Positions 19,964-33,000 of a DNA stretch of 64,000 bases are shown here, piece after piece. The notes under the pieces are model-generated. The model was not told the origin of the DNA, searched no databases, and saw only the letters and a list, made by a program, of their open reading frames with translations. The stretch is from Polytrichum commune (taxonomy: Eukaryota; Streptophyta; Polytrichopsida; Polytrichales; Polytrichaceae). The DNA is taken from positions 39,948,527 through 40,012,526 of the forward strand of contig OX485808.1 of NCBI GenBank assembly GCA_950295325.1, given 5' to 3'. The translations under genes and the position numbers were made by a program. Within the stretch, counting starts at the first letter, position 1; every line of letters starts with the position of its first letter.

Positions 19964-21017
19964 ATCTTGCGCAAAATTTCATAGCTTTGTATTTTGAGAC
20001 GCGGTTCATGTAGTAAATGTATATTGTGCACGCCGGTGCATGCAAATTGCGACAGATGAGGCACATTGGTTGCATCTCAGGCATCCCACGGCGGCGTTTG
20101 TATGCTACAACAGATTTGCTCAAAATGTCCAGTCCAACATAATCTTTTGCTCTGTTTTTGTGAATTTGTCCGAATAATCGCACAAGCATCGCAAAACTTG
20201 TTACGATCGTCATGAAGCTGTTGGGTGGGGGTTGGGTGCATGAGGTCTCCCGAGTGCTACCAATTTAAAGCTGGGAGGTCAAGGGTTTTTAAACCGTATC
20301 CCCATTGTAGCTTACAATACTGTTGGTCTGCCAACCGGAAGATCCAGGATGTGTTTTCTCCAACAATCCTGCCGCAGGATCTTTGGATTGTACACTTCTA
20401 TTGACAAACTTCACCTTTCTCAGAGATCCACCTGAAGGGCACGGCTTTGGCATGTTGTGGTGAGGAATCTCCCCGGAATCTCATACGTTAGTAGAATCCA
20501 GAGCATCATATGATACCTACCAGCAAGTGGGAGATTGAACAAGAGTGATTGACTAAAACATCTTGGATATATGTATGAAATTTGCGAGATGTATTTTCCA
20601 AAGATTTTCTGGGTTAAGTTTGTTTAGAATCACTGGAAAGCATTATGCTATGGCTTGCTTTGAGTGCTTTGCTGGTTTGTAGAGAAGAATTCCCATGTTG
20701 AGACAACACCAGAGAGAAATATCATCTCAAGGGTGTGATTTGCAAGTGATAAAGATTCTGCAGCCTAGCTACATGCAACTGAGAGAATTTTGTACTCTAA
20801 GAAGTTTTCTAGGATGCCGCCATCTTGGAATCTCTATTATCTACATTTAGGGTAAATTGGCGTTCAGGGTATTTTGGTGGCCATCCTGTCAAATGTCACA
20901 TACTCTGACGGAGTACAGATGTCGGTGGAGTTTCATTCCTCAAACAAAGAAATTAAATCTCAGCCGGAAGACTTCTAAGATCGATTACCTAACTTACTTA
21001 GTGGCTTCCGGGTCGGA

Positions 21018-22751
21018 ATGGAGTCCTTTCAGGGCGTCGAGATGAAAACACCAGCCGAAGGTGAGTTAACATAATTCCTCCTCCTACATCATCCCATGCT
21101 TTGTAAGATTCCCATGGTATTGTCAAATTGCAGAGATTTAGACACAAAGTTGAGTCCCCGTCGCCGAATTTGATGAACACTCAGCTTGCATCGAGCCCAT
21201 GGATGCTCCAACTGATAAAGTTTGGCTTTGTGATTTACGGTGATGGGACAATCAGATTGTCTGGACCAGGCAACAAAAATATGTCTGGAGCGTTCACTAC
21301 AAAGATTGGCTTCATCAAGTGGTCCTCAAGTTCACCGATTGCAATGTGAATATGTGGTGGGAAAACTGAAGACTGCTGTGGAGTGTGTCCGAGAGTGCTT
21401 CAAGTACTTGGCTGTTGAAGAGATCCTGAACTACCATCATATTTGTAAACTGCTCCTCCAAGCTGCCATGAATGTGAAATCAATCGTTAGCGATTGCTGC
21501 AAATCCCGTTGGATTCTAGCTGCTGTCTTGTTGCCAGATTCCACTCATCATTTTACCTCATTGGCCTACGAATTGGAAATGTGCACAAGGCTAATGCACA
21601 ACAGTTGGCGTCGGATTGGTGCAACGCAAACTTTGAGAGAACTTCAGGAAGTCAAGAATGTTGAAACCAACAGACTCATCGACATGGTTGTCCGTGATCG
21701 GAAGGCCCTGCTTGAGAAATTGGCAGGATGTCAGGCTCGGAGTACTATCAAGAAAAGAGACTTGGCAGAGCAATTGATGAAAAGAATCCAAAATGCTGGC
21801 AAAATGACATACGGTCATGTTGTTGACGATCATGTCAAGTGTTGGCACCTGTTGGATTCCAAAAGTTTGGTAAGGTTGGGGAGTCTTGGCAAGGGTGTGG
21901 ATAAGGTGAAGTGGTGTGGACAGCATTTTGCTTTAAAGACATTTTTTGGATCAGAACACCAAACCTTCATGAACGAAGTGTCAATTTTGGCCGGACTGTC
22001 GCACCCAAACATCGTATCCTTGGTTGGCTTTATCATCAACACCCGCAACCGCAGTTCTTCCATTCTTTTGGAACTGATGGATCAGGATCTCTATCATTAT
22101 ATGCAAGAGAAGTTGGCCAATGATGATTCAGACGGAGTTCCATTTAGCCACATGGAAGCAACTGACATTATGCTTCAGATTGCGGAAGGCGTGCAATATC
22201 TTCACGAGAACAAGATTGTCCACAGAGATTTGAAGTCGTTCAACATCATGATTAATCGTGTGAGACGACAAGGAGTTCATGAGCATTTGCAAGTCAAGGT
22301 GGCTGATTTTGGACACTCAAAATTGAAACAAAATAGCCACACATATTCCAACCAGACCCCCAACATTGGCACAACAAGATGGATGGCACCAGAGTTATTC
22401 TGCTGCAAGTCGACAACTCGGAGCCTTCAAAGTGATGCTATGGAGATTCCAGAGGCAAAACATCCATTTAAAACTGATGTCTATAGTTTTGCAATGGTTT
22501 GTGTAGAAATTTTGACAGGAGACGTGCCATTTTCAGCCAATGTGGCATTGGGAGGTCTTCGAGAAAGTATTGTGGATGGTTTGCGACCGGAGTTGCCCTG
22601 GAATCAATGGCCAGAACGCTTGTGCGCTCTAATTGAGAAATGTTGGCTGTTTGACCCAATCGAGCGTCCCTCGTTCGAAACAATTGTGTCCGAGTTGAAA
22701 TGTATAAAATGGTCGTTGGCGCTAGGTACGAATTCGACCTTCTTAGTGTGA
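21018..22751 (+). CDS. TKL-like protein kinase with N-terminal helical domain; possibly the 5' part of a longer gene
   Basis: The main exon encodes about 500 residues. The first ~190 are alpha-helical and Cys/Leu-rich (LLLQAAMNVKSIVSDCCKS), resembling the helical bundles in front of seed-free-plant TKL kinases. The kinase domain keeps its catalytic residues: the beta-3 lysine in FALKTF (21936-21938), HRDLKSFN (22221-22244), DFG (22305-22313) and GTTRWMAPE. The glycine loop is degenerate (LGSLGKG). So it is likely active and soluble. Start: the main exon has an ATG at 21243. A preferred alternative is a short exon 21018-21060 (MESFQGVEMKTPAE, donor GTGAGT) spliced in frame to 21256; that acceptor has a weak pyrimidine tract. 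End: the stop is at 22749-22751, but a donor at 22726 (CTAG/GTACGA) joins in phase to the acceptor before 23397, fusing this kinase to the next coding region. Confidence 0.8.
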
Positions 22752-23419
22752 CCAATTCTATCTGTCTTGCTCAATACTGATTGTAAACTGGCCGTGTAGT
22801 GTCACCAACACTCAATGTAAACCTAACAATATTTGTCATTCCTTGTAAGTTTTTTTGGGCATTAGAGATTTATATTGCTGCAATTACTGTCAGTTTCTAA
22901 GTGAAATTTCATGCATATTTCAATCATCGATGATGATATTTCATAACATCAATGTTAGGATGCATAATATATCAAGTTGTGTTTCAATGAATTGACATCT
23001 GGATGAACTAAAAGTTGCGATGACAGTACTTGTAAACTCATAATCTTGAAGTGTTACCACGATGACATAAAGTACCATATGACACTGAATATAATATTTA
23101 GTGTAGTAGCCAAAATGGTGCCCTTTCACATGTATTGATGAGCTCCTTAGAATGATGGGAGACCAAGGAAGTTATTGCATATGGAATCCACTAGGACAAA
23201 TATATCACACATCATGATATAATATTGATAGTTATGCATTCTAGAGTGGCTTACATTCTTCTGTATATTATTGTGCATTCTTCATATCTTTCACAATTTT
23301 ATGTAGATTTCTTTGAAATCCTTCTTCCAATTGTGCTTCATCTTTTTGGTCTTTTCTTCTCATCATTCTAAAGAGGATTATGGGGCAATTTTGCAGTCAT
23401 TCGCAAAGGACCAAGCTCA

Positions 23420-25715
23420 ATGTTAGGATGGAATTTGTTGGCAAATAGGTTGGAGCACCTTGAAAGTTTGCAAAATCTACTAGCACCAACAAACATTTTG
23501 GTGGGTTTGATGGGGGAAATTGCTAGATTGACCTACAACATGTTGGAAGCCAATAGAGCTAGCAAAGAAAACCAAGTCCTTGTGGAGCAATTATCTGAGT
23601 GCACATATGCGCTTTTTAGAAAGTTGGAATGTTATATATTGGAACCAAGGAGTTGGCCAAAGGAGAAATTATTCCCAAAGTTTTTGTACAATTTCCAAGA
23701 GACTATGGAGAGTGTCTTGGGTTTTGTGAGGAAATTTAGTGTACCAGACTATGTCGTCCTACACATTGATGTAAAGTCGCAATTTTCAAACCTCCGACAA
23801 CATCTAGATGTTGTAGAGGTCGACTTCAAGTTCCACGTGCTTCGAAAATTGTGCTTCAAATACAAGCCCGTAGGCCATTGGAGGTTGGGGGAAATGTGGA
23901 AGCCTGGCCTAGGCAATGTGATCAAGGCGAATTGGGCTCGGTTTTGGGATCAAATGATGCTTGGTTTTCCTAGTACAAGTCAATTTTTATTGGATCCATC
24001 GGCTATCGAGAATAAGTCAAAACTCGAAGCCAAACTCATTGCATGCATGTTTAACACATTTCCATGGGACATCGAGAGTAACAACATTTGTAGTTGTGCT
24101 TCTATTGAGGAGATTCTTATCAACCTCCTTGTTGCCAATGAGCATGATCTAGTTGTCATTGCAATGGAAGCTTCACATGAACAAAACCAGGTATGGGAGA
24201 CATACCCTTGTATCAAATTGAACATGAACTGCATGTCAAAGCTTTGCATGGATTTAAAAACATTAATATGTGAATATTGATTGTGATTTCGATCATACTA
24301 GAAGACGTGTTTTTAAAATTTTAACTATATTCTTCAAGCACTTGTTTCTGGTACGTACTAATTGAAATACCGTTAATATGTCTAAAAACATGGAAAAGAT
24401 TGTAACTTTGAGATTTCTCCAATGTAATTATGAGCTTCCTTAGCTGCAGATCAATACCTCAACTGCAGATGCTGCAAAGGAGGTGATATCTTGGAACGGG
24501 TACTTTATGAATAGCTCGGGCACCAAGGGTGATATGAAAGCAGAGCTTTTCATTACATCGGTCCATAACATATATGGCGGCGGTAGTGATGACATCGGGG
24601 ACTTCACATGGACAGGTAAATTACAACAAATTACACACTCCTAGCCCTCTATAAATCACATTCACGAAGGATAACTCTAGGGTTTGAGATTAGCTTAACG
24701 TTGTGGTTTGCAAGGCTCATCTTGTTGTTGTATTGCAATTTTCTTTGATGCTACGGTGGGTACAGCTGCACGATTTTCATTTTTTTGCAGATGATAATTT
24801 TATGCCATCATAATTTCATTGTCATTTATAGGTTGTTGTCAAGACACTCGGGTGAATATCATCAAGCACTACATCGATCAGCATAAACTCAAATATGATG
24901 GTGTCATGGAGGGCGCCAACATCACTGGCACTTGGAGATTTCTCTTTTCTCACAGCATGGGTGAATTCTTCCTCGAGCCGCAACTCTACAAATCCAATGG
25001 GAGGGTAGCTCAATTCGTGGAGGCTGGTAAGATAAAACGTTGGGATGGATACTTCAGGGAGGACGATAAAATCTCAGACATGAGTGCACAAATCATCTTC
25101 ACAGAAAATGGGAGCATCTACAGCACCGGAGGCAAGGACAACATGGGCTCGTTTAATCTCCTAGGTGAGTCTGATGCACGTGGTTATGTGAAAAGATTGC
25201 AACTATGTTAAAATAAGTAAATCTAGACCTGGGCATGAATTTTGGACATGATGAAATTCTGTATGTGCACTTTTATCAATGGATTCTATGATAGGAATGA
25301 CAAAAAGTGAGCCTAGATGTGGATTGGATTTCTTGTTGTAGCACGTGTTAATTGCATGCACACTTGTGTTATTTGTGGGAAAATATAGATCTAGAGAGAA
25401 TATCCTACCATGTTATTTCTCAAAGTATGCATAATTGGGAATTTCAAAGTGTGTATAGTCGGCATTTCTTTTCTTGGAATCGTTCAATCATTTTTGTGTA
25501 ACTTGATGCTCTCATATGTTCCAGGTCGCTATTACCTAGAATATAATTCAGTATCACTTTCTATGGTAAAGCAACCGCGAGCCGGAATGCCTGCAGTGTA
25601 CTTTTGGGGTGTGATGGCAAAAGAAGGAAGTTCAAGTGACGTGGTGATTGAGGGCTCATGGGTATATTGGAATCAGATGGGCACATTCCGTCTTGTCGCA
25701 GGAGCATTTCCATGA
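23420..25715 (+). CDS. HeLo/MLKL-N-like helical protein with two tandem beta-barrel-like repeats (4 exons)
   Basis: Exons are 23420-24190, 24450-24615, 24832-25164 and 25525-25715; all borders are GT/AG and phases agree (0, 1, 1), giving 486 residues. Residues 1-257 are helical, with IARLTYNMLEANRASKENQ then LVEQLSECTYALFRKLE, a pattern like the HeLo/MLKL N-terminal bundle (I..L...ANK..C..L..R...L). Residues ~271-364 and ~382-486 are two copies of a beta-rich domain: SWNGYF...DMKAELF...IYGGGSDDIGDF and RWDGYF...DMSAQIIF...IYSTGGKDNMGSF, each ending in a G-x-W then G-x-F strand pair. It recalls avidin/lipocalin-like small barrels. The open frame continues upstream through IRKGPSS to an acceptor (TTTTGCAG before 23397), so the ATG at 23420 may be internal to a kinase fusion. 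HeLo-type bundles in MLKL and NLR-like proteins drive membrane association or cell death; that role here is inference. Confidence 0.75.
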
Positions 25716-28700
25716 AGGTTTTACTATCACCGGAATTGAGTCGAATCCTCAAAGGAACCCACAAAACATTCCCAAGGTGACACCTTTGCTATTGAAAAGT
25801 TTATATTTGGAAGTCTATGGTGCATGTTAATATCCTTCAAAAGTTTATGATGTAACAAAATTAAGATCGTGTGAAAGTGTACCAAATACAAACCTATAGA
25901 ACTTCAATACGTATGGTATGTGGCCACTTTAGAGTATTGTAAAGAAATGTAGTACATATAATTGGTGATTAATAATAAGGAAAACCATAAGAATAGGGAT
26001 GCTTGTACATAGTATAGACTTGTTTCATGAAATAATTAATAAAAAATTGGATGAGTATGCATGTTCATTCAAATGCTTGTGATTAATGAAGACAATGTTG
26101 TGTATGGGAAATGTAAGTTAGGGTTTTGAAATTTAGGTGGTGCAATGTTGCCTCTGAAGCCCTTTCGAAGGATGGGTTTCAAAGCTTTTGTTGTTGTTTT
26201 GTGAGGATTTATGCAAAGAGAGGTGATGGATGACATACTAGTTTGTACAATGTGTGCAAAGATGCTTGAAGGAATTGAGTACTTGTGGTTGCCAAAGTTC
26301 AAAGCCACGAAGAATGACCTATTTACTTATGATGGATGCAATCACCACCCACATTGTAATACTTTGTGGGTGTCTTGCCTTTTGAGCATCTGTTTCCAAG
26401 AGCAATGTTCAATGTAGGTGTACGTGTTTTATGTTTCATGCAGAAAATGTGGGAATGTGAGAAATTGCGGATGTTGCTCTTTGCACAAAACTTCCATGAA
26501 CATATGGAAGGGATAATTTACCTTAGACAAAGGAGAGAATGTCAAAGAGGTTGTTGATGAGTCCTTGCCAAGTTTAGGTAGTATGGTCGAAATTGTAGGG
26601 CAGCGTGGATCATTTCCATCATTTAGGTAGAAAATGAAATCTCAAAACCCTTACCATGGCAAAGAAACAAAAATCAGCCGATGAATTCCTTGAATTCACT
26701 AGGCCATCATGTGAGACGGTCTAGTGCCAGTGTTCTATTGATGCTCTTGATATAAAGAGTAATGCAAAATATATGTCAAGTGAAGTAAAAAGCCAGATAA
26801 GTTATGAAGCACATACGTACTTCAAGATTTGGGAGATTACTGTCTGATTTCAAGTGTAGAAGGAAAGGAAAAGGGTTTATGGGTGATGTAATGTGTGCCT
26901 GACAACAAGGAATTCTCACCTCAACAATTTGGTAACCTTGAAGGTATGTAGCTTCCTTCCATCAATTTATCTAATGAGGCTTTGTCCTCTTTAGCTACCA
27001 CTTATTGTCTTGTATCTTCATAAAATGCTGGAGCCACCAAACAACAAATAACATGATTAAGAGTATATCTCCTTTGATCTCAAGTCGTGAGTCGCAGCTT
27101 GAGATCTTCTCCGGTTGTGAATTGTGATGCTATTCCTTTACAAGAACCATATGTTTGTATACAACTTCCACAAGCTAGAGTAGACACCACAACTAGAAGT
27201 GGGCAAGTTGCAACAACATTTATGACATGCTAATGGAAGACAATTTATGCAGTTTATGTAGGGTGGCAATTTTTCTTCCAATTTTCTTTGCACTCGTTAT
27301 TAATGCTGAATTTCACATTAAATATGAAAGATGTATAATCGTCATGTCTTTGATTAAGTAACAAGTCGACCACCCTGTGATGATTTGAAGAGTTGCCACC
27401 CTGGACAAGCATTTCCTCGACAGATACACAGCAAGAAAAATTGCAATACTAGCCTCTGGATCCAGACGGCAAGTGAACATGAGTTCCTTGTCTAGATCTG
27501 TGTACGTTGGCAATCAGTTGATCTCCACAAGCTTTTGACAAGCCAGGCCCTAAAAGGAGCTTGGTAGGAACCCATTACTTATCATGAGAAACTTTGTCCA
27601 AGGATCTGATGAGGAACAAACAATCCTCGAGCAACAGCAATCTAATGGCCAGAATGTTCATTTGAAGCTACAATTTTGCTCGTCAAGATCCAGGCCGCTT
27701 GGATTGTGGACTATGCAGATGGGACTTACCTTAGGGCCTCAGACCAAATGGATGCATCTTAGAGATCTAGTCGTAATAAAAGCAACACAGCTCCTTTTAG
27801 GAGTTGATCATCCAATCCATGATGAAATGCACATACTCATACTTTTTATTTGTCCATTATATGAAATCTCACAGTTTTCTACAAATGTTTGAGCTGTACA
27901 ATACATGAACTGTTGTGATTGACTTTGATGTGAGTGGTAATTGAAATGCACCAAATTACAACAGATTCTATTTCAGGTACTTCAGAATTTCGAAAGCATT
28001 GGCTGTGGAGAGTCCATTTGAAAGGTCTCACAATAAGATGAACTCAATAGTGTCAAATCAAACCAGAAACCACATAGGCACTAAAGAAACTGACCAATTG
28101 TTCATCAGATGCGAGAACTTCTGCTTCCGTCAAAAGTCTGCCTTACAAGCTCAGTACCACAAAACTGGAACTACCCGTGTTTCTGCATTTCACGTATATT
28201 AGGCTAATAATGCTAAATGAGTCAACATGCACCAGGTGGATGGCTTCAGCACTCAAAAGACAAATTCCTACACATACAAATCCCTCAACTATCCACGTCC
28301 ATAGACCACACATCAGGTCATACTAAACTGATTAATCTGCACCTACATTTCTAACGACTTTCCGCATTCATCTTGCACAGGGCATTTGGATGATCAGTGA
28401 ATGATCACCTGCTGATCATTGTTTGATTTAGTACTCAGACTAGCTAGCTTCCATCACCACTCGCATGCGATCAGTATATTGCTCATGTTACAACCAGCAC
28501 AATCACTCGGCATGAATCTGGTCTAATGTACAATGCATGTCAGAAGCAAATATAGAGCATCCCAACCAACGAATCCACCTTACCAGAATTAACCTTAATT
28601 TTGATAATTCTGCTGGGCTCCTTATTAATCCTCCACAGCAGTGGTTCCGCCTGCCTTGTAATTTAATCTGGAATGTTCGGCTGCTGCAGGCAAGGGCGCT

Positions 28701-29558: not shown

Positions 29559-31484
29559 TCACCCAGAGATGGAGATCTCGATGGACCTGCCCCCACCGTT
29601 GTTGTTGTTGTTCTTCCGATGTCGAAACAAGGCAGGGAGATCATCGTCGGAAGGGTCAGTGTAATTGTACTTCTCACCAATTGCACGAAGCACCTGGTAA
29701 ATCTCCACCATGCTCGGCCGATCCTTCGCCCCCAGCAAAACACAAGAGCAAGCCAACTGAAAAACCTCCAGAATCTCATCGTCCACACCTTTACCTCTGA
29801 TCACCTGATCCACGCCCTCACCAACCCGGCTTGTGTTGGTCAACATGAGCACATAATCCACCAAATTTCCAGAAAATTCTGGTCCAACACTAACCTCAAC
29901 ATCCAGGGGTTTTTGCCCCGTTACAAGCTCCAGAAGAATCACACCGAAGCTGTACACATCGCCCTTCGTGTTCGCCACCAAAGTGCGCAAAACCTCAGGG
30001 GCCACATAGCCCGGTTCACCGTATTCGCCGTTCACCAAAGTGCGCATGTGCGTATCAACAGGGTTGATCAATCTCGCAAGACCAAAGTCAGTGATTCGAG
30101 GCTCATTGTCATCATCCAAAAGGATGATATGTGAGCTTATGGTGCGGTGAACCACCCGAGGGGTACACCCATGGTGCAGCCATGTTAACCCTCGCGCAGC
30201 ACCCGTGGCGATCTTCACTCTCTCCGCCCAGTCGAGTGCATTGGTTTCTTTCGCAGGAAATGTATGCAACCTGGTCCAGACACATCCATTTGGCATATGT
30301 TTGTATACAAGGAGCCTCTCACCGCTCACCACACAATAGCCGAGCAAAGGGACGAGATTGCGGTGACGAAGGTGCCCTAGGGCTTCGATCTCAGCTTTGA
30401 ACTGACGGTCACTGCGAGAGCAGACCCTGAGCCTCTTGATGGCCATTTGGGAGCCATCTGGGAAAGCTGCGAGGTAGACCGTACCCGTCCTGCCTGCACC
30501 GATGATGTTATCTTTGCTGAAATTGTTCGTGGCAAGCATAAGGTCAGAGAGCTTGATGCGAACAATGGGCTTCTCGAACATGGTGACGGTCACAGACCTT
30601 GGGTTTCGTATCTGCTTAGCCCATTTGCCTTCATCACGCATCATCATGGCTGCGTCTAATGTTTGTGACCTCGCCATGAAGTACCATAGAAGAAATGCGG
30701 CAAGGATGACTAACCCGAACCCCCCAATGCCTCCTCCGAGAATCACCCCCCAATTCGATATTTGTTTCTTGGTGTTGGAAGATCCACATGTTGCAAGCGG
30801 TGCACCACATAGGGCAGCGTTCCCTGTGAAGCTGGAAGCTGGGAACCCTGATGCTCTCGCAGAAGTCCCATGCAGAAGTGTGCTTGGGATAGGCCCCGAG
30901 AGATCATTGTAGCTCACATTGAAGCTTTTGAGACGCTCCATGGGCCCTATCTGTGCTGGAATTTCCCCCTCGAGGACATTGTTCTGCAGTAACAGATCGT
31001 TCAGGTATTTGCACAAAGAGAGCTCTACGGGGATCACCCCGCCAACCTTGTTGTTGGCAATGTTCAAGCTCACCAAATTGGGGATATCTGTGCACACATT
31101 GCTGGGAATCGGACCTGTGAAACTGTTGCTGGATAAATCCAGTTGTTGGAGCGCTGAGCAGTTGCGGAGTCCCTCAGGCCATGTCCCGGAGAGATACAAA
31201 CCTGGTAGGTTTAACCTGTACATGGGAGGCACATTGTTGCCGTAACAATCCACTCCTTTCCACTTACAAATGTCGTCTGGATTCTTGATGGGGATCACCC
31301 AGCTTACCAGCTGGTTCTGTGGATCCTGCACTGAACTCTTGAACGCCGTGAGGCACTCCACATCGCTTTGCAAAACGCCGAATGCTACTTGCAATAAGCA
31401 GGAGATGGCCAAGGCGAAAATCACACCAGCTATGGTGCATGTGGCCATGGCTGATGAGCACCACATCTCGTTTACCTCCTCCAC
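29559..31484 (-). CDS. BIR-like leucine-rich-repeat receptor pseudokinase (641 aa, single exon)
   Basis: Domains in order: signal peptide at about residues 13-37; LRR N-cap with ECLTAFKSSVQDP and CKWKGVDC at 40-80; about five LRRs at 88-205 (LQQLDLSSNSFTGPIPSNV); transmembrane helix at 245-270; kinase-like domain at 325-600. The glycine loop (GAGRTGTVY) and beta-3 lysine (AIKRL) remain, and DFG and the APE motif are present. The catalytic HRD is HRT (30141-30149) and the following LKxxN is replaced by ISSHI. This matches the BIR group (LRR-X), whose members are inactive kinases that bind BAK1-type co-receptors and restrain immunity and cell death. Length fits the family (about 600-640). Three Met codons in the first 13 residues leave the start open; residue 13 gives the cleanest signal peptide. 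The Asn/Gly-rich tail is low complexity. Confidence 0.9.
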   Translation of the reverse strand: MEEVNEMWCSSAMATCTIAGVIFALAISCLLQVAFGVLQSDVECLTAFKSSVQDPQNQLVSWVIPIKNPDDICKWKGVDCYGNNVPPMYRLNLPGLYLSGTWPEGLRNCSALQQLDLSSNSFTGPIPSNVCTDIPNLVSLNIANNKVGGVIPVELSLCKYLNDLLLQNNVLEGEIPAQIGPMERLKSFNVSYNDLSGPIPSTLLHGTSARASGFPASSFTGNAALCGAPLATCGSSNTKKQISNWGVILGGGIGGFGLVILAAFLLWYFMARSQTLDAAMMMRDEGKWAKQIRNPRSVTVTMFEKPIVRIKLSDLMLATNNFSKDNIIGAGRTGTVYLAAFPDGSQMAIKRLRVCSRSDRQFKAEIEALGHLRHRNLVPLLGYCVVSGERLLVYKHMPNGCVWTRLHTFPAKETNALDWAERVKIATGAARGLTWLHHGCTPRVVHRTISSHIILLDDDNEPRITDFGLARLINPVDTHMRTLVNGEYGEPGYVAPEVLRTLVANTKGDVYSFGVILLELVTGQKPLDVEVSVGPEFSGNLVDYVLMLTNTSRVGEGVDQVIRGKGVDDEILEVFQLACSCVLLGAKDRPSMVEIYQVLRAIGEKYNYTDPSDDDLPALFRHRKNNNNNGGGRSIEISISG

Positions 31485-33000
31485 TTTACAATTTAGCCAT
31501 ACACATCCGTGTTCTCTCTGCTTCGGAGTTCATACCTGTGAAGCTAGAAACCGCCATAGCCACTTCAAACCAACTCTCCTCTCTTCTTGCAGGAGTAACC
31601 CAATCTCCACCTTCTATGCGTTCCTTTTCTGTGCAGCCTGCTCTTAAGCTAATAAACAAAAATTTCAGACTATGGTCACTGGGTATAAGCCTTTAACGTC
31701 GGAGACTACGAAGAGTGTTAAACTCTTACTTCACCTTCAATCAACCTTACAATGTCTATGTGTGGCTCCACCGAAGCATTGTCTCCAAAAACACCACCTA
31801 ACCCCTTCGCTCGGCCCGAACTTCTAAATTGCTATGATCACAAGTGCTTCTTGTTTTGGCTTCTCAGTACCTACAGTGATAAATGGCCCTACCCACAATG
31901 CATACGTGATTGATGTTTACCTATATGACTTCAAGCCTCATGGAAAACGTAGGATACCTACTCCACACGAAAGACCGACGAAAGCTTTAATGCTGTAGAC
32001 GATGGCTATAATAGATGTTTCCAGATGAAATGGGTTTAAGAGCCAGCAGTACCGGAGGTTCGAAGCACTTAAACTTCGGGTTTGCCCATGGTGCCCAGCT
32101 TCTTGGTAGTGCTCGTGTAGAGATGAGCCGCTATGCTAAGGAAGCAGACTGAAAGTCTCTGAAAAGAAGCTCAACAGAAATGAAAGCTTGCTTACTCTGC
32201 ATGTTCTGTGCCATGGAAGTTGCAGCATTGAACCCAAGAAGCTGTCTGAGGCTCGGCTTCACTCCACTCTACTCCACTTCACTTCACTTCACAGCGAACA
32301 AGAAAATATGGCATAGCTACAGAAACATCCTCCCAGATATTTTTGGCGGCATGAAGACTTCCAAGCTCGCTGGCTACTTCCGAAGAAACGCAAGAACAAA
32401 GAGCTCCAGTACTCATCAGCAGCTGGGTTCAGTGCAGGAGCTTCCCCACTAAACCCCTCAGTGATGATGCACACAAAGAAATGCCTGCAACAATACTGTC
32501 GATGTCGGTGTCCCTCGGAGCTCCAGAAAACAGTCTCAATTCTCACAGCATCATGGCAAGAAACCAAGTCTCCAAAACATTATAACTACACCAACAACAC
32601 CTCTCTGACGTCACTCCAGCTGAAGAAAGCTCGAACTGGAGCTGCAAATAGGTGATCAGCGTCACCTCCAGACGCAGCACATTAGGAGGTAAATGTGCAT
32701 TCGTCCGAAACAATGCTGCAAGTGAAGGGTTTGCCTTTGGAAAGTTGGAGAAGGACCAGAGGAAAAAAATCTACAGCATCATGGCAAGAAACCAAAAACA
32801 ACTATAACAACAACCTCTCTCACGGCTGCAGTACGACAGCTCAAGAAAGCTGGAACTGGAGCTGCAAATAAGCTGATCAGCTTCACTTCCAGACACACAT
32901 TAGGAGATATGTTACTGCATTCCTCCGAAACTATTCTACAAGTTAAAGGTTTAGAGAGGGAAAAAGGCCATAGCTATGGAGAGGGGGAGTGGGAGTAGTG
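31485..33000 (-). promoter_or_regulatory. Leader and upstream region of the receptor pseudokinase
   Basis: No coding exon is supported here. The part next to the start codon is CT-rich on the plus strand, with CACTTCACTTCAC-type runs near 32265-32290. A tandem duplication at 32548-32955 is listed separately. A 5'-UTR intron is possible but I cannot place it. Confidence 0.35.
32548..32955. repeat. ~228-bp tandem duplication upstream of the receptor pseudokinase
   Basis: Two copies start with GCATCATGGCAAGAAACCAA at about 32548 and 32776. Both continue with AACAACACCTCTCT-like, GAACTGGAGCTGCAAATA, TGATCAGC and CACATTAGGAG blocks, and then TCCGAAAC and CAAGTNAAGGGTTT. Identity is well below 100 percent, so the duplication is not very recent. 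Confidence 0.75.

Follow-up and report, generated by a model that had tools for sequence, protein, structure and literature searches.

Between positions 21018 and 25715 of a 64,000-nucleotide stretch of DNA from the moss Polytrichum commune (contig OX485808.1; hereafter the window, in which all positions are counted), a helical domain and a protein kinase are followed on the plus strand by an orphan helical region and a pair of barrel-like repeats. Judging from the sequence, these parts likely form one gene, and its product is probably a plant kinase fusion protein. This protein would be 998 amino acids long and apparently intracellular, with a helical domain of the MLKL/RPW8 kind at its N-terminus. 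Taken as a whole, the evidence is best explained by a four-part fusion encoded by a single gene, together with a sensor-executor proposal for its action, an account that we consider moderately probable.

The initial annotation had proposed six exons with matching phases, and recomputation gave the same structure: the exons sum to 2997 nt, the frame is open for 998 codons with a single stop at its end, all phases match and all five introns have GT...AG borders. Exon 1 (21018..21060) encodes the N-terminal start of the helical domain, and exon 2 (21256..22725) encodes the remainder of this putative MLKL/RPW8-type domain, which reaches to about 21791, followed by the protein kinase, as assigned by Pfam, the family alignment and a pooled helical profile. 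A probable phase-1 intron (22726..23396) leads to exon 3 (23397..24190), which encodes the orphan helical region. The repeats are encoded by exon 4 (24450..24615, first half of repeat 1), exon 5 (24832..25164, second half of repeat 1 and first half of repeat 2) and exon 6 (25525..25715, second half of repeat 2 and the stop). Exon 1 is less certain and is arithmetically dispensable, since an in-frame ATG at 21243 offers an alternative start for exon 2. In addition to its GT-AG border and phase, exon 1 is favoured because its end (TPAE|D..LD) resembles the starts of relatives (KPAEWYLD in L002 and TPKRYL in L006). No Rfam match at gathering score was obtained within 20900-26000, and no tRNA within 22600-25600.

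The disputed junction is the one between the kinase and exon 3. Its donor (CTAG|GTACGA) lies at 22726 with the kinase stop 8 codons further on, and its acceptor reads TTTTGCAG|TC, with the last base at 23396; the following open reading frame (ORF) is open back to 23372. Both this donor and the open frame running from the next ATG back to the acceptor had been described in the initial annotation and were confirmed. Alternatively, the region could hold two neighbouring genes, one with two exons for the helical domain and kinase, its end at 22751, and one with four exons for the helical region and the double barrel, its start at ATG 23420. Each half does have its own ATG and stop, and the C-terminal half shows no sequence similarity to the kinase family. 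We nevertheless regard a pair of genes as improbable in view of the donor position in relatives, the rarity of joinable neighbours and the composition of the gap.

To place the donor among relatives, the kinase family was collected from the genome of the window (408 Mb, of which the seven largest contigs make up 406 Mb). The N-terminal 246 residues of the window protein match at least 55 places in this genome, that of the window gene among them, a lower bound because scores were computed for 150 of 226 candidates; 33 neighbourhoods were taken and 27 helical-kinase rows were aligned, the window among them. L001, L010, L016, L017, L025, L026 and L032, which are partial, broken or incompletely read, were kept outside the tree. 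One of these, L001, carries a helical fragment that is 56% identical, and it was rejected as a relative locus, its frames being broken and its surroundings devoid of kinase and barrel matches. The tree contains a clade of 12 rows and a group of 14 that includes the window, with L024 beside the latter. The branch setting off the group of 14 has a support of 94/93, just below the 95/80 mark of the tool, and long branches were flagged.

Besides that of the window, 36 kinase ends were compared. They comprise 13 first-kinase ends with GGT at the window donor position, 6 second kinases, 13 ends of the kinase-NLR (nucleotide-binding leucine-rich repeat) type, 3 without the donor codon (L010, L024 and L032) and 1 cut by the locus end. 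The 13 relatives that share the donor, together with the window, are precisely the tree group of 14. Within this group the site reads AG|GT in 11/14 and TG|GT in the remaining three (L002-L004), and GTAYG is found in 12/14 donor sites, the exceptions being L021 and L022. Past the donor, the residues and the distance to the stop vary widely. In the exons of this group 92/336 glycine codons are GGT; by simple arithmetic, a constant GGT over seven lineages, treated as independent, has a chance of about 1e-4. The recurrence of the donor in 13 relatives thus argues against two separate genes in the window.

How often neighbouring ORFs can be joined by chance was assessed with same-strand ORF pairs, each of at least 60 amino acids and less than 2 kb apart. 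A pair was counted as joinable if AGGT[AG]NG occurred no more than 30 nt before the stop and an in-frame YAG was present upstream of the next ATG. In the window 1/171 pairs was joinable, namely the kinase/exon 3 pair, while elsewhere the counts were 0/283 in 24 light-harvesting complex (LHC) loci and 3/312 in 34 family loci; one of the three joinable pairs at family loci is the kinase end of L007. Joins by chance are rare, which likewise speaks against two genes.

The gap between the kinase and exon 3 is largely taken up by a dispersed high-copy element with inverted ends (22743..23106), similar to a miniature inverted-repeat transposable element, and the apparent kinase stop (22749-22751) lies within it. 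The genome gave 3040 candidates for this element, of which 40 were scored, and 12 copies were aligned with the window copy. At its left end about 18 nt are missing, and the insertion was perhaps imprecise. Once the element is removed, donor and acceptor are 307 nt apart, and two separate genes would have to fit the 3' end of one and the promoter and 5' leader of the other into this distance. Four TGTAA motifs between the kinase stop and exon 3 would suit a kinase gene that ends there. However, 4/4 of them are inside the element, as is the stop, and because of this location they were not taken to demonstrate polyadenylation of a kinase transcript. For comparison, 16 LHC 3' regions of 400 nt contain 23 TGTAA motifs vs 11.2 in shuffled sequence (the L057 region is unclear as an LHC end), and the density is 3.6 per kb in the LHC 3' regions vs 1.6-1.7 per kb in the window.

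The same motifs bear on the possibility that one locus gives two products, the spliced fusion and a kinase-only form that ends, perhaps by polyadenylation, in the element. The unspliced frame does stop within the element, where the four motifs are found, while the enrichment of TGTAA in LHC 3' regions is just modest. Two products from one locus would overlap with the single fusion gene that we prefer; rated separately, they appear rather unlikely.

Several observations weigh against joining the two halves. With its ATG at 23420, exon 3 could start independently, and polyadenylation might yet be signalled by the four TGTAA motifs after the kinase stop. The donor codon is absent from L010, L024 and L032, the site reads TG|GT in L002-L004, and at L009 the donor DNA is intact with the frame shifted upstream of it. 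Some kinase-NLR rows read IGTYS at the donor position, so that the glycine may be conserved for its own sake. What follows the kinase also varies. A second kinase is found downstream of the first in L005, L006, L008, L009, L018 and L023, and own ATGs precede it in L006, L008, L009 and L018. Behind the kinase of some relatives no C-terminal exon can be recognised, and in L007, L011, L021 and L022 the downstream sequence that was read yielded neither a kinase nor a helical domain.

The ORF of the second kinase in L023 lacks an ATG upstream of residue 119, whereas the glycine loop already lies at residue 50; acceptors in phase 1 are present. Since the N-lobe is thus not preceded by an ATG, this second kinase is probably spliced to a preceding exon, unless it is a pseudogene. 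In L005 an ATG at residue 32 of the second-kinase ORF shortly precedes the glycine loop, and in L002-L004 the downstream part carries its own helical domain. On balance, a joined gene, as the initial annotation had suggested, gains from the recurring donor, the inserted element in the gap and the chance test, all of which are evidence from sequence.

Independently of the junction, the arrangement in these relatives is tandem-kinase-like: in L005 (gene 2) and L023, and also in L006, L008, L009 and L018, the second kinase ORF lies about 0.5 kb downstream. Two other relatives have unusual neighbouring sequences. On the minus strand of L011 (3686-6001), a long extension precedes the helical domain and kinase in a single open frame of 772 amino acids; by eye it was taken for an Hsp70/actin-fold ATPase, a candidate left unconfirmed by Pfam and PDB. 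On the minus strand of L024 (3-1691), an ORF downstream of the divergent helical-kinase exon gives weak matches to an F-box and a KIB1-4 propeller, and it may be a neighbour gene or another partner.

The kinase of the window gene is matched by Pfam PK_Tyr_Ser-Thr with an E-value of 9e-41. The description of the kinase as active-looking holds for the beta-3 lysine and the HRD and DFG motifs, which are retained in the family alignment. It does not extend to the glycine-rich loop: compared with that of relatives such as L002 (LGTGSSAAVHKAKW), the loop of the window gene (LGKG, then VDKVKW) is missing about 4 residues.

The N-terminal helical domain was compared with 177,635 PDB sequences. A pooled profile of 26 rows matched best to 6LBA (8.3e-5) and then to 6KA4 (0.0024), both of them Arabidopsis MLKL (MLKL2 and MLKL3); the third match was a bacterial-type ULP protease chain (0.022). 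When the 26 rows were searched singly with Pfam, RPW8 was found in 4 (best 3.1e-6), MLKL_N in 5 (0.0013) and DUF1221 in 4 (3.8e-4); among the 13 window-clade rows, DUF1221 occurred in 2 (0.0048). Kinship with MLKL is therefore likely at the level of the family. For the window's own helical domain it is unproven, as this domain matched none of the MLKL, RPW8 and DUF1221 models of Pfam. The profiles of the separate clades and the remaining Pfam matches count against the MLKL assignment: the window-clade profile found only a designed binder (0.021) and no MLKL, the NLR-clade profile found the ULP protease chain best (0.0097) with two MLKL chains at 0.71-0.72, and ATG17_like (1.9e-5 in 3 rows) and SPOB_ab (0.0037 in 5 rows) were matched as well. 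A single-sequence AlphaFold2 model of the helical-kinase exon was unusable for judging whether the domain is a four-helix bundle, with a mean predicted local distance difference test (pLDDT) score of 37.8.

A second helical domain of this kind, a HeLo-like bundle, had been suggested for exon 3, and this suggestion found no support. The exon-3 region shows no likeness to HeLo, MLKL_N or RPW8, and no significant similarity to the family helical domain (hhalign 0.4%; 2.7 bits). With Pfam at E-values up to 10, only TPR_ESP1 was found (0.015), below its cut-off. A likeness to MLKL-type executors thus applies to the N-terminal helical domain, at family level, and not to the exon-3 region. The single-sequence AlphaFold2 model of exon 3 had a mean pLDDT of 39.8 and was likewise unusable.

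In contrast, the two C-terminal repeats of the initial annotation proved to be a real tandem duplication; their barrel-like label is a reading of the sequence. The repeats in exons 4-6 share 31% identity, with 29 shared columns, and each is split at the same glycine by a phase-1 intron, these being the two introns that flank exon 5. As intron position and phase are common to both repeats, the duplication carried its intron along, and this vouches for exons 4-6. Avidin/lipocalin-like would be no more than a tentative name for the repeats. For the C-terminal half the genome yielded no further copy, NCBIfam no match and Pfam none over the cut-off; similarity to the kinase family is absent, and against PDB nothing better than an E-value of 0.45 was obtained (one match, with the repeat profile). 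The sole other genome match to exon 3 (E 0.77) was discarded; it sits in a stretch that by eye resembles a Ty3-type retroelement. No relative was confirmed for exon 3 in prokaryote contigs or for the repeats in prokaryote and viral contigs, which says little about plants because this genome was the sole plant genome searched.

Across the family, the helical-kinase unit would be combined with varied partners, namely NB-ARC-LRR (leucine-rich repeat), a second kinase or, in the window gene, the orphan module. In our proposal, donor 22726 is spliced to exon 3, the C-terminal module recognises an effector from a pathogen, or a host target that has been disturbed, and this changes the state of the kinase. 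The N-terminal helical domain would thereby be released for assembly at a membrane, where it would trigger ion flux or cell death, a step modelled on proposals for MLKL, RPW8-type NLRs and wheat Pm13. By analogy with these systems, such a path from sensor to executor can be put forward only tentatively.

A kinase signalling protein without a role in cell death, with a generic coiled bundle and with barrels that bind a ligand in a non-immune pathway, would agree with the retained catalytic motifs. It would also agree with the dependence of the MLKL match on pooling the clades, with the lack of MLKL, RPW8 and DUF1221 matches for the window's own helical domain and with the matches of other helical models to some family rows. 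However, the helical-kinase unit has NLR partners in the same genome. A helical domain of the window type precedes the kinase of NB-ARC-LRR genes in L014, L015 and nine or more other loci; in the 12-row clade, NB-ARC after the kinase was tested with Pfam in L014 only (NB-ARC-LRR), and in the other 11 rows NB-ARC-like ORFs were recognised by eye. Such kinase-NLRs are proposed as candidate immune receptors in two reports (PMC3352924, PMC11218826), and a non-immune role is accordingly rather unlikely in our view.

The fusion gene that we prefer differs from each of the known systems that it resembles. In Arabidopsis MLKL the kinase is the C-terminal domain. If the window holds one gene, its kinase is not, as the frame runs on for 494 amino acids, and because the joined frame continues past the kinase the window gene was not classed as MLKL. 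Plant MLKL, described as conserved across seed plants (PMC9950082), and wheat Pm13, in which the kinase is also C-terminal (PMC10951266), share with the window the order of helical domain, linker and kinase, and Pm13 as described likewise keeps the main catalytic motifs. They differ in that the window protein has an extra C-terminal helical region with two repeats and a shortened glycine loop.

The kinase-NLRs of mosses (PNL or Pkn-NLR) carry a kinase homologous to that of the window gene, preceded in this genome by the same helical domain. In contrast to them, the 998 amino acids of the window gave no Pfam match to NB-ARC or LRR, and the junction after the kinase is in phase 1, while a phase-0 intron is described between the kinase and the nucleotide-binding site of PNL genes (PMC3352924). 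Kinase-NLRs are expanded in mosses, with the action of their kinase end described as unsettled (PMC10952240), and a Physcomitrium kinase domain gave a modest, variable response in N. benthamiana (PMC11218826). Kinase fusion and tandem kinase proteins of the Triticeae, such as Sr43, also join a kinase to another kinase or to an unrelated domain, a presumed effector trap. None of those compared here (PMC10260397) has the helical and double-repeat partner of the window gene, and such resistance genes are called apparently unique to Triticeae there. In the literature searched, no title or abstract dealt with the window architecture or with an MLKL-type domain before a moss kinase; most subscription papers lay outside this search, and such a description may be in print.

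Other features were seen beside the gene and in the loci used for comparison. A second dispersed high-copy repeat (25215..25446) lies inside the intron 25165-25524. On the minus strand, the window encodes a receptor-like kinase with LRRs (29562-31529; Pfam PK_Tyr_Ser-Thr 4.3e-35). Among the light-harvesting loci, L035-L048 (G000 C5, 1.75-1.85 Mb) comprise fourteen genes in about 95 kb with equal scores and an identical C-terminus, apparently a homogenised array.

Our comparisons lead to a possible view of the whole family, to which we attach limited confidence. The MLKL-type helical-kinase cassette may be a plug-in executor that is attached by different junctions, either to NB-ARC-LRR or, in phase 1, to a second kinase or an orphan sensor. 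On this view, kinase-NLRs of this type would represent fusions of MLKL and NLR parts, and the window gene would encode an NLR-free receptor with the executor and a new type of sensor in one chain; its double repeat would be a sensor module for which the libraries searched gave no match. If the N-terminus of kinase-NLRs is indeed an MLKL-type executor with a kinase, reused outside NLRs with swapped sensors, one family would bring together NLRs, tandem kinases and executors like those of necroptosis.

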